From Aeromicrobium camelliae (lineage in GTDB: Bacteria; Actinomycetota; Actinomycetes; Propionibacteriales; Nocardioidaceae): a stretch of DNA of 64,000 nucleotides. Every line of letters begins with the position of its first letter. Positions within the stretch are counted from its first letter, which is position 1. The notes below the pieces were generated by a model, which worked only from the letters and a program-made list of their open reading frames with translations, was not told where the DNA came from and did not search any database. The position numbers and the translations under genes are program-made. Below are positions 1,086 to 53,858 of the stretch, piece by piece. The stretch is taken from assembly GCF_003850045.1 (NCBI RefSeq), contig NZ_RQJX01000006.1, positions 1-64,000 of the forward strand. The letters run 5' to 3'.

Positions 1086-2336
1086 TCAGCTCACCTTGAA
1101 GTACCGCTGGGTGTGGCGGATCGCCTCAACCAGCGCGTCGATCTCCGCCTCGGTCGTGTACAGGTAGAACGACGCGCGCGTCGTCGACTGGACACCGAAG
1201 CGGCGGTGCGCCGGCTTGGCGCAATGGTGCCCGGCACGCACGGCGACACCGCGCGAATCGAGCAGCTGCGCGACATCGTGCGGGTGCACGCCGTCCAGGG
1301 CGAAGCTGATCGCTCCCCCACGATCGACCGGCTCCCGCGGCCCGACGATGGTCAGGCCGTCGATCTCCTGCAGACGCTCGAGCGCGTGGGCGGTGATGGC
1401 CTGCTCGTGCGCGGCGACGTTCTCCATGCCGAGGGCGGTCAGGTAGTCGACCGCCGCACCCAGGCCGGCGGCCTGCGCGATCGGCGGGGTGCCCGCCTCG
1501 AACCGGTGCGGCGGAGCGGCGAACGTGCTGCGCTCCATCGTCACCGTCTCGATCATCTCGCCACCGCCGAGGAACGGCGGGAGCGACGCCAGCAGGTCAT
1601 AGCGACCCCACAGCACGCCGATGCCCGTCGGACCGACCATCTTGTGGCCGGTGAACGCGACGAAGTCCGCGCCCAGCGACGCGACGTCGACCGGGATCTG
1701 CGGCACGGCTTGCGAGGCGTCGACCGCCACCAGCGCACCGACCTGGTGCGCCCGCGCGATGACGACGTCGAGCGGGTTGATCGTGCCGAGCATGTTCGAC
1801 ACCCACGTCAGCGAGACGATCTTGGTGCGCTCGTTGACCAGCGTGTCGAGATCGTCGAGGTCGAGGCGGCCCTCGTCGGTGACACCGAACCACCGCAGCG
1901 TCGCACCCGTGCGCTCGGCGAGGAGCTGCCACGGGACGATGTTGGAGTGGTGCTCCATCTGCGAGATGACGATCTCGTCGCCGGGACCCACAGTGCCGAC
2001 GTCGCCGAGCACGCGCGCCACGAGGTTGAGCGCCTCGGAGGCGTTCTTCGTGAAGATCACCTCGTCGCGCGAGGGCGCTCCGATGAACTGCGCGATCTTG
2101 TCACGGCCACCCTCGAACGCCGCCGTGGCCTCCGCACCGAGCTGGTGCATGGCCCGAGCGACGTTCGCGTTGTGCTCGAGATAGTGCCGCTCGATGGCCT
2201 CGACGACCTGCCGAGGCTTCTGCGAGGTGTTGGCACTGTCGAGGTACACGAGCGGGTGCCCGCCCGCGACCGACCGCGCGAGGACCGGGAAGTCCTTGCG
2301 GATCGCTTCGACGTCGTAGCCCTGAGTCCGGGTCAC
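1086..2336 (-). CDS. sufS: SufS cysteine desulfurase
   Basis: 416-residue PLP enzyme (class V aminotransferase fold, group II desulfurase) that takes sulfur from cysteine to form a protein persulfide and alanine. The PLP lysine is K232 in FTGHKMVGP. The persulfide cysteine is C372 in RAGHHCAKP, with the short loop typical of SufS rather than IscS. The GTG start overlaps the sufC stop as GTGA, and partner sufU follows immediately. Confidence 0.97.
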
Positions 2337-3097
2337 AGTGCTGCGGCCGCCTTGACGTACTTGTCGTAGCCCTCGGACTCGAGCTGCTCGGCGAGTTCGC
2401 GTCCGCCGGACTCGGCGAGCTTGCCGGCCACGAACACGTGGACGTAGTCGGGCTGGATGTACTGCAGGATGCGCGTGTAGTGCGTGATCAGCAGAACGCC
2501 GCGGTCACCCTGGCTCGTGTAGCGGTTGACGCCCTCGGAGACGACGCGCAGGGCGTCGATGTCCAGGCCGGAGTCGGTCTCGTCGAGCACCGCGAACTTC
2601 GGGTTCAGCAGTTCGAGCTGCGCGATCTCGTGGCGCTTCTTCTCACCACCGGAGAAGCCCTCGTTGACGCTGCGCTGCGCGAAGGTCGGATCCAGCGTCA
2701 CGCGCTCGAGCGCGGCGTTGACGTCCTTGACCCAGGTGCGGAGCTTGGGCGCCTCACCGTCGATGGCGGTCTTGGCGGTGCGCAGGAAGTTCGCGACCGA
2801 CACGCCGGGCACCTCGACGGGGTACTGCATGGCCAGGAAGAGGCCGGCGCGCGCGCGCTCGTCGACGGTCAGCTCGAGGATGTTCTCGCCGTCGAGCAGC
2901 ACCTCGCCGTCGGTCACCGTGTACTTCGGATGGCCGGCGATCGAGTACGCGAGCGTCGACTTGCCCGAGCCGTTGGGTCCCATGATCGCGTGGACCTCGC
3001 CGGACTTGATGGTGAGGTCGACGCCGCGCAGGATCTCCTTCGCGCCGTCCTCGGTCTCGACCGAGACGTGGAGGTTCTTGATCTCAAGGGTGGACAT
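2333..3097 (-). CDS. sufC: SufC, ATPase of the SufBCD scaffold complex
   Basis: 254-residue ABC-type ATPase without membrane domain. Walker A is GPNGSGKST (about residues 40-48), the signature is FSGGEKKR, and Walker B is [12 protein letters not shown], the Suf-specific variant with DETDSG. It drives conformational change of SufB-SufD during cluster assembly in the cytosol. It lies 6 nt after the Rieske gene and overlaps sufS by 4 nt. Confidence 0.97.
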
Positions 3098-3103
3098 GAT
3101 GTG

Positions 3104-3427
3104 TCAGTTCTCGCTTTCGTCGGGGAGATCGACCCACACGGTCTCTCCCTCGATCTTGGTGGGGTACACGGGCACGGGTTCGGTGGCGGGCAGGCCGAGC
3201 GGCTCGCCGGTGCGAAGGTCGAATCGCGAACCGTGGAGGAAGCACTCGATCGTGCATCCCTCGACGTCGCCGTCCGACAACGGGATCTCCGCGTGGGAGC
3301 ACCAGTCCTGGATCGCGTAGACGGTGTCGCCCTGCTTGACGAGCGCAAGGTCGATGCCGCCGAGCTCGACGGCCAGGGCCGCGCCCTCGGGAACGTCAGC
3401 CAGCTTGGCTGCCTCCTGGAACGCCAT
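3104..3427 (-). CDS. Rieske-type [2Fe-2S] ferredoxin in the suf operon
   Basis: 107-residue single-domain Rieske protein. Cluster ligands are C43 and H45 (DWCSHAE) and C62 and H65 (CFLHGSRF). It resembles the ferredoxin subunits of non-heme-iron oxygenases but has no oxygenase partner here. Its position between sufD and sufC, with the start overlapping the sufD stop (TGATG), is conserved in Actinobacteria. An electron-transfer role in cluster assembly is plausible but is inferred from context only. Confidence 0.93.
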   Translation of the reverse strand: MAFQEAAKLADVPEGAALAVELGGIDLALVKQGDTVYAIQDWCSHAEIPLSDGDVEGCTIECFLHGSRFDLRTGEPLGLPATEPVPVYPTKIEGETVWVDLPDESEN

Positions 3428-4598
3428 CAGGACTCCAGCCGGCCGACGACCGTCGCGAGCTCGTCCTCGATGGCCGAGGTGAGCCGCTCCTGAAGATCCT
3501 CGACACCGATCCGGCGGATGATGTCGTTGAAGAAGCCGTGGACGACGAGGCGACGCGCCTCGGTCTCCTCGATGCCGCGGCTCTGCAGGTAGAACAGGTG
3601 CTGGTCGTCGAAGCGACCGGTCGTCGACGCGTGGCCGGCGCCGGCGATGTCGCCCGTCTCGATCTCGAGGTTCGGCACCGAGTCGGCCTTGGCCCCGTCG
3701 GTGAGCACCAGGTTGTCGTTCTGCTCGAACGTCTCGATGCCCTCGGCGACCTTGCGGATGAGGACGTTGCCGATCCACACGGTGTGCGCGTCCTGCCCCT
3801 GCAGCGCGCCCTTGTACTCGACGTTGCTGCGGGTCTTGGGGGCCGTGTGGTCGACGAACTGGCGGTGCTCGATGTGCTGGCCGGCGTCGGCGAAGTACAC
3901 GCCGAGCAGGTCGACGCTGCCACCGGGACCGGCGTAGTCGACGTTGAGGCTCGTGCGGACGAGGTCGCCGCCGAGGCTGAACTCGAAGACCCGGACCTCG
4001 CTGTCGCGACCGGCGCGCAGATTGATCTGCTCGGTGTGGACGGCGTCGTCCTCCCAGTCGTTGAGCGTGACGAGATCGAGCTTGGCACCGTCGCCGACGA
4101 CGACCTGGGTGAAAGCGTCGTAGGTGGCCGAGCCGACGTGATCGACGAGGACGGTGGCCTTCGCGTGCGCACCCACCCGGATCACCACGTGTCCCCACAC
4201 CAGCGTGTCGGCGCCAGCGCCGCGCATCGTGAGACGCACAGGGCGATCCAGCTCGGCGTTTGCGGGGATGTCCAGCAGCACCGCGCCGCCGGCGTTGGCG
4301 ACCGCGAGGGCGCCGAGCCGGTCGAACGGAGCGCTCACCGCGAGCGCCTGCGCCTCCTCGGTGCTCAGCTCACCGAGCGTGACGCCTTCGGGCAGGTCGT
4401 TCTCCCAGGAAAGGTGCGCGTCGGAGGCCGCGCCGTCGAACAGCCCGCGGAGACGCTTGAGCGGGGTGAACCGCCAGATCTCCTCCAGGCCGCTGGGAAC
4501 GGGATGCGCCGCGAGGTCGTAGGACGGCTCGGGATGCAAGTGCGACTCCACATGCTCGAGTTCCAGCGCGTTCGCGACGTTCTCCACGGTGGCGGTCA

Positions 4599-4599
<1 letters not shown>
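3427..4599 (-). CDS. sufD: SufD, scaffold complex subunit
   Basis: 390 residues, right-handed beta-helix protein that pairs with SufB and SufC. The C-terminal SufBD core with SRGIEETEARRLVVHGFF (about residues 340-357) is the family signature. In the SufBC2D complex it aids iron acquisition. The start overlaps the sufB stop by one base (TAATG), indicating translational coupling. Confidence 0.96.
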
Positions 4600-6031
<1,432 letters not shown>

Positions 6032-6035
<4 letters not shown>

Positions 6036-6724
6036 GACGACACCCTCTCTGGTGTGGGGGCTTGCGGAAGATGGGTGGTGCAGACACCGTCACCGTGCGC
6101 GATGGTGGCGAGTCGCTGGACGTGCGTGCCGAGCAGGTCGGCGAACAACTCGGTCTCGGCTTCGCACAACTGGGGGAACTCCCCCGCGACGTGCGCCACG
6201 GGACAGTGGTGCTGACACATCTGCTCGCCGGCCGGCGAGCTGCTGACAGACGCGGCGTAACCGTCGTCGGTCAGGGCTTGGGCGAGGATACGCGCACGCT
6301 CCTCGAAGGACTCGACGCCCTCCAGGACCGCGCGGTAGCGCTCCTCGAGGGCACCGAGGCGGTGGCGGGCGAAGGCCTTGACGGCATCGTCCCCGCCGGT
6401 CTGGTGCAGGTAGCGCAGCGCCTCGGCGGCGAGCGCGTCGTACGAGTGCTCGAACTGGTCGCGGCCCGAGTCGGTCAGGACGAACACCCGAGCGGGCCGT
6501 CCGCGACGGCGCTGGCCGACGATGCGCTGCTCGCGCGGTTCGATGAGGCCCTGCTCCAGCAGCGCGTCCAGGTGCCGGCGGACGGCTGCGGGCGTCAGAT
6601 CGAGGCGCTCGGCCAGCTGCGCAGCGGTCGAGGCGCCATGCGACAACAGGCACTGGGCGACACGCAGGCGCGTGGGAGCGTCATCGGTCGACGACGCCAC
6701 CTCCGGTACCCGCATGTTTTTCAC
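6032..6724 (-). CDS. sufR: SufR, Fe-S-sensing transcriptional repressor of the suf operon
   Basis: 230 residues: N-terminal winged helix-turn-helix (about residues 17-85, with [13 protein letters not shown] in the wing) and a C-terminal sensor carrying C170, C174, C187 and C215, the cysteine cluster expected to bind [4Fe-4S]. In M. tuberculosis Rv1460 (SufR) is the first gene of the suf operon and represses it. The GTG at 6724 is chosen because a promoter-like -10 (CACACT) ends 6 nt before it, suggesting a leaderless message. The ATG at 6715 is an alternative; neither has a Shine-Dalgarno. Its own operator overlaps the start. Confidence 0.93.
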
Positions 6725-6760
6725 AACACCAGTGTGCCGTTATTCATTCCGGCCATTCAA
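6721..6760 (-). promoter_or_regulatory. suf promoter with SufR operator
   Basis: On the minus strand the sequence reads ACACT-GGTGT-TGTGA (6735-6721), an exact match to the ACACT-N5-TGTGA inverted repeat I recall as the mycobacterial SufR site. It overlaps a candidate -10 (CACACT, 6736-6731) and the GTG start. A -35-like TTGAAT lies at 6760-6755, 18 nt upstream of the -10. Binding here would block the promoter, giving autorepression. Confidence 0.8.
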
Positions 6761-6761
6761 C

Positions 6762-6780
6762 GAAGGTTCGCCTTACCGCT
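6762..6780. promoter_or_regulatory. DtxR/IdeR-like iron box upstream of suf
   Basis: The 19-mer GAAGGTTCGCCTTACCGCT fits the core of the DtxR/IdeR consensus TWAGGTWAGSCTWACCTWA at 13 of 14 inner positions (AGGTTcGCCTTACC). The outer flanks do not match. It lies immediately upstream of the -35 of the suf promoter, a position more like an activator site than a blocking operator. Nearly the same block occurs at aconitase (53840-53858). Confidence 0.6.
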
Positions 6781-6822: not shown

Positions 6823-7881
6823 ATGGCCACCACGGCAGCGCAGGTCGAGGCGGGCGGGCGTACCGTCCGCGTGTCGAGCCCCGACCGGATCATCTACGAG
6901 GCGACGGACATCACTCCCGCGATCACGAAGCTGGAGGTCGTGGAGTACGTCGTCGCGGTCGGCGACGGCCTCATGCGGGCGCTCTACGAGCGGCCCACCA
7001 CCCTCGAGCGCTGGCCCAAGGGCGTGCGCGAGGGCATGACGCTGTCGACGCGCCAGGACAACCACGGCGACGCGTTCTACCAGAAACGCGTACCGAAGGG
7101 AGCACCCGACTACCTGGAGACGGTGCGCATCCACTTCCCGTCGGGCCGCCGGGCTGACGAGATCTGCCCGACGGAGATCGCCGTCGCCGCCTGGGCGGCG
7201 CACATGGGCACGATCACGTTCCATCCGTGGCCGGTGCGGCGCAGCGACGTCGACCGGCCGGACGAACTGCGCATCGACCTCGATCCGCAGCCGGGTACCG
7301 ACTTCCACGACGCCCAGCGGGTCGCCCGCGTGGCCAAGGAACTCCTCGAGGAGATCGGCATGCGCGGCTACGTCAAGACGAGCGGCAACCGCGGGGTGCA
7401 CGTGTTCGTACGAATTCGCCCCGAGTGGACGTTCACCGATGTGCGGCACGCCGCGCTGGCGTTCGGTCGTGAGCTCGAACGGCGCGACGACAGGGTCACG
7501 ACGAAGTGGTGGAAGGAGGAACGCGGCGAGAAGATCTTCGTCGACTTCAACCAGAACGCGCGCGACCGCACCATCGCCAGCGCCTACAGCCTGCGACCGA
7601 AACCCGGCGCTCCCGTGTCCACTCCCCTGACCTGGGACGAGCTGTTCGACCTCGACGAGCCGCGGACGCTCAATCTCACGACGGTCCCCGACCTTCTCGC
7701 GCAGCGGCCCGACCCGTGGGCCTCGATCGACGACGAGGCGTTCGGCCTCGAGACCCTGCTCGAGTGGTACGCCCGCGACGAAGAGAACGGCGAAGGCGAC
7801 ATGCCCTATCCCCCGGACTACCCCAAGATGCCCGGCGAACCGAAGCGCGTGCAGCCGTCCAAGGCCCGCGCGGACACCTGA
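6823..7881 (+). CDS. LigD-type DNA polymerase (archaeo-eukaryotic primase fold)
   Basis: 352-residue stand-alone polymerase domain of the LigD family, here without fused ligase or nuclease. Metal-binding aspartates are D152 and D154 in RIDLDPQPG, followed by KTSGNRGVHVFVRI, the nucleotide-binding motif of the family (usually TSGxxGxH). Such proteins (for example M. tuberculosis Rv3730c) sit next to LigC-type ligases and are linked to NHEJ or RNA-primed gap filling. The convergent neighbour is exactly such a ligase. No ku gene is in the window, so an NHEJ role is not shown. Confidence 0.9.
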   Translation: MATTAAQVEAGGRTVRVSSPDRIIYEATDITPAITKLEVVEYVVAVGDGLMRALYERPTTLERWPKGVREGMTLSTRQDNHGDAFYQKRVPKGAPDYLETVRIHFPSGRRADEICPTEIAVAAWAAHMGTITFHPWPVRRSDVDRPDELRIDLDPQPGTDFHDAQRVARVAKELLEEIGMRGYVKTSGNRGVHVFVRIRPEWTFTDVRHAALAFGRELERRDDRVTTKWWKEERGEKIFVDFNQNARDRTIASAYSLRPKPGAPVSTPLTWDELFDLDEPRTLNLTTVPDLLAQRPDPWASIDDEAFGLETLLEWYARDEENGEGDMPYPPDYPKMPGEPKRVQPSKARADT

Positions 7882-50873: not shown

Positions 50874-53726
<2,853 letters not shown>

Positions 53727-53797
53727 CGTCTCTCCTTCGCGTGTCTTGACCCATCCTGCCGACCTTTCGGTTCCGCGCATCACGGAGGCCGACGCAA

Positions 53798-53815
53798 TAT
53801 CTTGACATCAAGATA
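53798..53815. promoter_or_regulatory. Palindromic operator over the acnA -10
   Basis: TATCTTGA-CA-TCAAGATA is an 18-bp palindrome with 8-bp arms. Its left arm on the minus strand is the candidate -10 (TATCTT), and the other arm covers the expected start site. A dimeric repressor bound here would silence acnA. The palindrome resembles MarR-type sites, but the regulator is unknown. Confidence 0.65.
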
Positions 53816-53838
53816 CCTTGCCGCGGCGGGGCCTTCAA
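53810..53838 (-). promoter_or_regulatory. acnA promoter
   Basis: -35 TTGAAG (53838-53833), 17 nt, -10 TATCTT (53815-53810) on the minus strand. The expected start is near 53803, giving a leader of about 77 nt with a Shine-Dalgarno. Confidence 0.65.
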
Positions 53839-53839
53839 C

Positions 53840-53858
53840 GAAGGTTGCCCTTACCGCC
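53840..53858. promoter_or_regulatory. DtxR/IdeR-like iron box upstream of acnA
   Basis: GAAGGTTGCCCTTACCGCC matches 12 of 14 inner positions of the DtxR/IdeR consensus. Together with its flank it is 22/24 identical to the block at the suf promoter (TTCAACGAAGGTTNNCCTTACCGC), and it likewise sits just upstream of a TTGAA -35. Confidence 0.55.

Follow-up and report, generated by a model that had tools for sequence, protein, structure and literature searches.

A predicted IdeR half-site at a conserved distance from the -10 element of iron–sulfur genes in Aeromicrobium

The shared block and its candidate regulator

In the stretch of Aeromicrobium camelliae DNA analyzed here (64,000 nucleotides, hereafter the window), nearly the same 24 bases stand upstream of sufR, the first gene of an Fe–S cluster assembly operon, and of acnA, which encodes aconitase. 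Why do these two promoters carry a common block, and what might bind it? The first-pass annotation had taken the block for a DtxR/IdeR site common to suf and acnA and placed for activation, an interpretation that our sequence comparisons support, with changes to the type of site predicted and to the age of the likeness. Both copies lie where that annotation had put them, TTCAACGAAGGTTCGCCTTACCGC at 6756-6779 (+) on the sufR side and TTCAACGAAGGTTGCCCTTACCGC at 53834-53857 (+) on the acnA side, and they are identical at 22 of 24 positions. The two genes are on the - strand, on which the block reads GCGGTAAGGNNAACCTTCGTTGAA, ending in TTGAA; at sufR it comprises a predicted half-site and the start of the -35. 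At a tolerance of 3 mismatches, the 24-mer has 2 matches in the window, against 0 in 100 shuffles, and the genome-wide search that the annotation had suggested gave only 2 in 3,063,801 bases (3.06 Mb), with 0 for the reversed pattern. The flanks outside the block are dissimilar between sufR and acnA.

The block does not amount to a full iron box. No site in the genome comes within 3 mismatches of the 19-bp DtxR/IdeR consensus TTAGGTTAGNCTAACCTAA, and a full box, with four CCTAA repeats occupied by two dimers, was not found at either promoter, the outer repeats being variable in relatives. A 19-mer with G or C at its center is, in effect, two overlapping half-sites, TTAGG-N4-CCTAA, with one dimer on each, and it is the 14-bp half-site TWAGG-N4-CCTWA that both window copies match, with one mismatch in each and with inverted CCTAA-type repeats separated by a 4-bp spacer. 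The comparison thus supports a predicted IdeR half-site for a single dimer in place of a complete iron box; in this narrower form, the DtxR/IdeR-like core noted in the annotation holds. Such sites have a biochemical precedent: a single dimer of Saccharopolyspora erythraea IdeR is described as occupying one half-site, with a KD of 78 nM (PMC8464063).

Two DtxR-family proteins are encoded in the genome, one IdeR-like and one MntR-like, the gene for the latter adjoining a metal ABC transporter. The IdeR-like protein (C2) matches solved IdeR 1fx7 with E 7e-76 and DtxR 1bi0 with E 6e-68, and its recognition helix, QSGPTVSQTV, is identical in the alignment to that of the solved chain 7b1v, which is S. 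erythraea IdeR as given in PMC8464063. Across the genome, the half-site with at most 1 mismatch occurs at 17 places per strand, compared with 43 for the reversed control, so that support for the motif rests on where it lies and not on how often it occurs; likewise, the 16 one-mismatch matches to TNAGG-N4-CCTNA in the window, against 9.4 expected, are not informative. The genomic matches merge to 14 loci, among which 7 are iron uptake loci (three Peripla_BP_2 binding proteins, three siderophore-interacting proteins, and one HtaA) and 4 are Fe–S genes (suf, acnA, a Fer4 ferredoxin, and a Fer4 oxidoreductase), several of the sites lying between divergent genes, where the iron gene was chosen as the target. 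The other 3 are a ferredoxin-reductase-like gene, an ORF without a Pfam match, and a site inside a radical-SAM coding region. Because the half-site targets include uptake genes, IdeR is the likely regulator. At two of the Peripla_BP_2 genes the upstream half-sites are arranged in tandem with a 15-bp period, three of them at G000:C10:23527-23570 (locus L085, 1501-1544) and two at G000:C1:280077-280105 (L076/L080), a layout that differs from the overlapping 19-bp box.

The sufR and acnA promoters in Aeromicrobium and beyond

The suf operon occupies the - strand of the window as sufR (6032-6724), sufB (4599-6035), sufD (3427-4599), and sufC (2333-3097). The best named match of sufR is a cyanobacterial SufR model (E 3e-26, 92 bits, under the model cut-off of 179), and its identity is accepted from its context ahead of sufB, sufD, and sufC. 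All its promoter elements are likewise on the - strand. The predicted half-site, TAAGGCGAACCTTC (6762-6775, one mismatch to TWAGG-N4-CCTWA), directly precedes a -35, TTGAAT (6755-6760), whose TTGA is largely kept in the genus, and its CCT lies 27 nt from a -10, CACACT (6731-6736). A sigma-70 scan gave no promoter at its threshold for sufR or acnA, and the -10 assignments rest on conservation. Overlapping the sufR -10 is a putative SufR operator, ACACT-N5-TGTGA (6721-6735), with a similar element in relatives; we take it to resemble the mycobacterial SufR operator. The promoter motif of SigR/SigH is GGAAT-N18-GTT, and a promoter of this type fits the window sequence at sufR; GGAAT is lost in several relatives, and it was set aside as a common feature. 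Divergent from sufR lies a LigD primase-polymerase gene (6823-7881), and the half-site persists in relatives, most of which have a different sequence beyond it.

Within Aeromicrobium, a sufR match was obtained in 47 of 49 genomes (none in G036 and G038), and all 47 upstreams were read. Every one contains TNAGG-N4-CCT, with the CCT 27 nt from a -10-like hexamer in 46 and 26 nt in 1; there is one half-site in 42 loci and two in 5, the second lying further up. The order-level search covered 147 genomes, 14 of them Aeromicrobium, and 28 upstreams were sampled from the 133 others: a half-site with nAnnnT at 25-27 is present in 22 of these 28 loci, from 13 of 19 genera, and the half-site is absent in the remaining 6. 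A further comparison took in 80 named loci. Here Kribbella, Nocardioides, Catenulispora, and one of two Actinospica have the half-site at 26-27, Embleya has it at 50, and Streptomyces has it 61-67 nt from the -10 in 56 of 57 loci; a single Actinomycetota locus among the 80 has no half-site, and one Desertihabitans and one Actinospica locus have the half-site with the operator pattern unmatched. Altogether, 153 half-sites were seen in 155 sufR upstreams, compared with a shuffle mean of 3.0, a comparison of related sequences and not a test of significance. In the Streptomyces loci (among L132-L203) the half-site often reads TTAGG-N4-CCTAAGTGA and could serve a divergent gene; no helical-phase relation between 61-67 nt there and the 27 nt seen elsewhere is claimed. 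One locus labelled Streptomyces sp. SID13031 (L138) has a Kribbella-type sufR promoter, possibly from a misnamed genome.

The acnA gene (50874-53726, -; likely start ATG 53726), unlike sufR with its below-cut-off match, is clear in its identity, and it appears to have two promoters. At P1, on the - strand, the predicted half-site TAAGGGCAACCTTC (53840-53853) precedes a -35, TTGAAG (53833-53838), and its CCT is 26 nt from the -10 assigned there, TATCTT (53810-53815). A perfect palindrome, TATCTTGACATCAAGATA (53798-53815), covers this -10 and is a candidate operator of another regulator. Its counterpart, TATCTTGANNTC(A/G)AGA, overlaps the P1 -10 in the 47 Aeromicrobium acnA upstreams, and a like palindrome is found in all 47 and in the 32 order-level upstreams read; its regulator is perhaps TamR-like, TamR being described as a repressor of aconitase in Streptomyces coelicolor (PMC5487221). 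Downstream of P1, a second putative -10 (P2), usually CAGGAT, recurs across Aeromicrobium. In the window it is assigned to 53753-53758 (-), 27 nt from a decayed half-site, TTGCGTCGGCCTCC (53784-53797, -), which two sister genomes retain in its intact form, TTAGGTCGGCCTCA.

It is at P2 that most of the genus carries the acnA half-site. Of the 47 Aeromicrobium loci, 46 keep a distance of 26-28 nt between the CCT and a -10-like hexamer, mostly at P2, and 44 have a half-site between the two -10s, all 44 with nAnnnT at 26-28. For 41 of the 44, the P2 hexamer follows the site at 27-28 nt; L054, L057, and L061 make up the remaining three, in which the P2 pattern is unmatched and nAnnnT stands at 26. 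Only the window genome, its sister G014, and G016 (by one mismatch) are without the P2 half-site. By comparison, the window clade (G000, G014, G015, and G023) carries a half-site at P1, 26 nt ahead of the -10, as does G033 outside the clade, there without a following TTGA. G015 and G023 have half-sites at both promoters, and the P2 site is decayed in the window and in G014, the window change being TTAGGTCGGCCTCA to TTGCGTCGGCCTCC, which leaves one intact half-site at the window acnA. The simplest order of events would be P2 alone, then both, then P1 alone in the window lineage. The likeness beyond the acnA half-site (CGTTGA) is confined to the four genomes of the window clade. Thus, since the acnA half-site sits at another promoter in most relatives, the 24-base identity of the two window blocks is to be read as recent and local and the half-sites themselves as old: of the site that the annotation had proposed as common to suf and acnA, the conserved half-sites stand and the extended identity does not reach beyond close relatives.

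Outside the genus, 32 acnA upstreams were sampled from the 133 genomes searched. A half-site with nAnnnT at 26-27 is present in 20 of them, two of which (L248 and L254) have it far upstream of P1; the half-site is absent in 12, 7 of which come from one family (f2). Six loci (L055, L059, L063, L064, L065, and L069) have an extra half-site, TGAGG-N4-CCTGA, 33-35 nt before the acnA P1 -10, which in five of the six accompanies the P2 site.

Spacing at four iron–sulfur genes

The ferredoxin and Fer4 oxidoreductase genes were traced in 31 Aeromicrobium genomes, with 30 loci read for each and with half-site patterns that were relaxed after the sequences had been seen. A ferredoxin half-site is present in 29 of 30 loci (TNAGG-N4-CCT in 26, a CCC variant in 3, and none in 1). 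The oxidoreductase half-site, with a loosened left arm, is present in 25 of 30, one of the 5 misses having yielded no upstream sequence; these sites are the least canonical, with AGG in 3 of 25 and TGG in 22. At all 29 ferredoxin and all 25 oxidoreductase sites, nAnnnT stands exactly 27 nt on. This pattern is a weak definition of a -10, and offsets 5 to 74 (70 in all) were scanned with it. Offset 27 ranks first at each of the four promoters, with shares of 0.98 at sufR, 0.70 at acnA P2, 1.00 at ferredoxin, and 1.00 at oxidoreductase, where the runner-up reaches 0.84 at 45; in the combined score, 27 is far ahead of every other offset. Taking sufR and acnA together, a half-site plus -10-like hexamer at 26-28 is found in 155 of 234 upstreams, compared with a shuffle mean of 0.32 and a maximum of 2, although the sequences are related and not independent. 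The half-site is conserved before four Fe–S genes of the genus, with its CCT 26-28 nt from a -10-like hexamer.

The quality of the -35 separates these promoters. The best match out of 6 averages 4.0 at sufR and 4.5 at acnA P1, compared with 2.2-2.4 at acnA P2, ferredoxin, and oxidoreductase, where shuffles give 2.2. The spacing also distinguishes the Fe–S genes from the uptake genes within the window genome, where nAnnnT at 25-28 accompanies 4 of 4 Fe–S half-sites and 0 of the 10 half-sites at the seven uptake loci. With -10s assigned by conservation, the Fe–S sites keep 26-27 nt between their CCT and a -10-like hexamer and thus lie at the -35 position or upstream of it; at four uptake loci no more than 2-35 nt separate the CCT from the assigned start codon. 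Among the remaining loci, the ferredoxin reductase half-site has no nAnnnT at 25-28, and the ORF without a Pfam match has a hexamer at the right spacing that falls within its coding frame. The idea that uptake half-sites overlap a -10 was dropped, because most of the TANNNT hexamers concerned, that at the ferredoxin site included, are formed by the half-site itself.

Proposed activation, rival readings, and known systems

We propose, with a probability of roughly two in three, that a single iron-loaded IdeR dimer, bound to the half-site at its fixed place in the promoter, activates these Fe–S genes. When iron is plentiful, one Fe2+-IdeR dimer, centered near -44.5 if the -10 hexamer is taken as -12 to -7, would contact RNA polymerase, probably through sigma region 4 or the alpha C-terminal domain, and raise transcription; at acnA P2, ferredoxin, and oxidoreductase this contact would compensate for the poor -35. 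When iron is scarce, IdeR would depart, the iron-consuming Fe–S genes would drop, and the uptake genes, which IdeR would repress while it activates the Fe–S genes, would be released. The SufR operator over the sufR -10 would supply feedback from cluster supply and the palindrome over the acnA P1 -10 a second signal, and in the window lineage the acnA half-site would have passed from P2 to P1 via a two-site stage. The activating sign we infer from the fixed spacing, the missing -35, and the contrast with the uptake half-sites; in this respect the annotation's view of the placement as suited to activation gains comparative support, the distance from half-site to -10 at Fe–S genes not being seen at uptake genes. 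Against it, most promoters have a single half-site, whereas activated IdeR genes tend to have several boxes, lying at bfrB upstream of the promoter, and repressed genes have a box over the start site or the -10 (PMC10317159); in addition, a dimer placed at -44.5 might instead obstruct polymerase. More generally, and at odds only slightly better than even, IdeR may have a second, activating mode that is legible from DNA geometry: a half-site CCT 27 nt upstream of a -10 would mark a class II-type activator of an Fe–S regulon across much of the Propionibacteriales, half-sites placed otherwise would repress uptake, and a lineage could shift the site between promoters via a two-site stage.

Three other readings have to be weighed against activation. 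IdeR might bind these half-sites and repress, a dimer by the -35 blocking sigma region 4, so that iron scarcity raises suf and acnA. In favor of this reading, the literature presents DtxR-family iron sensors chiefly as repressors (PMC10317159), the near-consensus -35 of sufR could work unaided, and in a cattle strain of Mycobacterium avium subsp. paratuberculosis suf and aconitase transcripts are reported up at low iron (PMC2975660), which fits poorly with simple iron activation. Yet a blocker needs no strict spacing, and 26-28 nt is kept in four gene families, a constancy that extends to many genera in the case of sufR and acnA; the -35 is at background level in three promoters, none of the 10 uptake half-sites shows the Fe–S spacing, and shutting down aconitase under plentiful iron makes little sense. 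We consider repression unlikely, though it deserves to be taken seriously.

That the MntR-like protein acts here instead of IdeR, with manganese rather than iron in control, we judge improbable. MntR proteins bind short palindromes as single dimers, and the genome does encode an MntR-like protein beside a metal ABC transporter; set against this, the half-site also marks seven siderophore or heme uptake loci, its other targets are Fe–S genes, and no half-site with at most 1 mismatch lies near the mntR-like gene itself (C13:2960), whose operon promoter falls outside the sequence read. Least credible is a small promoter duplication or chance as the source of the 24-base likeness, with the iron link incidental: such an origin would suit the likeness beyond the acnA half-site, restricted as it is to four genomes, and is at odds with the dissimilar flanks and with the recurrence of half-site and hexamer in 155 of 234 upstreams.

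A 2023 review of IdeR states that half-sites in other species and their function remain to be investigated (PMC10317159), and half-sites at fixed spacing before Fe–S genes provide a concrete, testable answer. If activation by IdeR is correct, cluster assembly, the TCA cycle, and ferredoxins would all come under the direct influence of iron supply, and the spacing rule may separate activated from repressed IdeR targets by sequence. No earlier mention of the spacing between half-site and -10 was found in the open-licence literature, searched mostly by listings. IdeR/DtxR sites at suf and acn have themselves been predicted earlier: a DtxR site at the suf operon of Corynebacterium diphtheriae (DIP1296; PMC524172), the counterpart of an Fe–S cluster assembly operon at which such a site, JK0985, is listed (PMC1382209), and a DmdR1 site at S. 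coelicolor acnA (SCO5999), whose expression is described as uncorrelated with dmdR1 (PMC12161575). The C. diphtheriae suf and S. coelicolor acnA predictions concern the same target genes but, in the portions of these sources available, appear as single computed sites, with no spacing rule or half-site reading found there; the single half-site, the fixed spacing, and the promoter switch thus appear to be new. A further known input to suf is Rv1460/SufR, described as repressing the operon in Mycobacterium tuberculosis (PMC6034842).

The proposed switch shares with the classical IdeR/DtxR iron box TTAGGTTAGSCTAACCTAA, which takes two dimers, its CCTAA-type repeats, its regulator family, and its tie to iron uptake genes, but sufR and acnA conserve only one repeat pair with an N4 spacer. 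The closest likeness in site type is the S. erythraea nuo half-site C23S1, a single-dimer site at a respiratory Fe–S gene cluster (PMC8464063); here, by contrast, the half-site is conserved in many genomes, at suf, acnA, ferredoxin, and oxidoreductase, and at a fixed distance from the -10. The ferritin promoters of M. tuberculosis bfrB and C. diphtheriae ftn resemble the Fe–S promoters in being bound at the -35 or upstream of it, and are induced by iron, as is proposed here. They differ in having four and three boxes, respectively, where mostly one half-site per promoter is found here, and bfrB in acting through displacement of Lsr2 (PMC10317159; PMC13001254). Finally, corynebacterial aconitase also goes up with iron by way of a DtxR protein, but along an indirect route in which ripA is under DtxR repression and its product in turn represses acn, other regulators also taking part (PMC13001254), whereas in Aeromicrobium the predicted site lies directly at the promoter.
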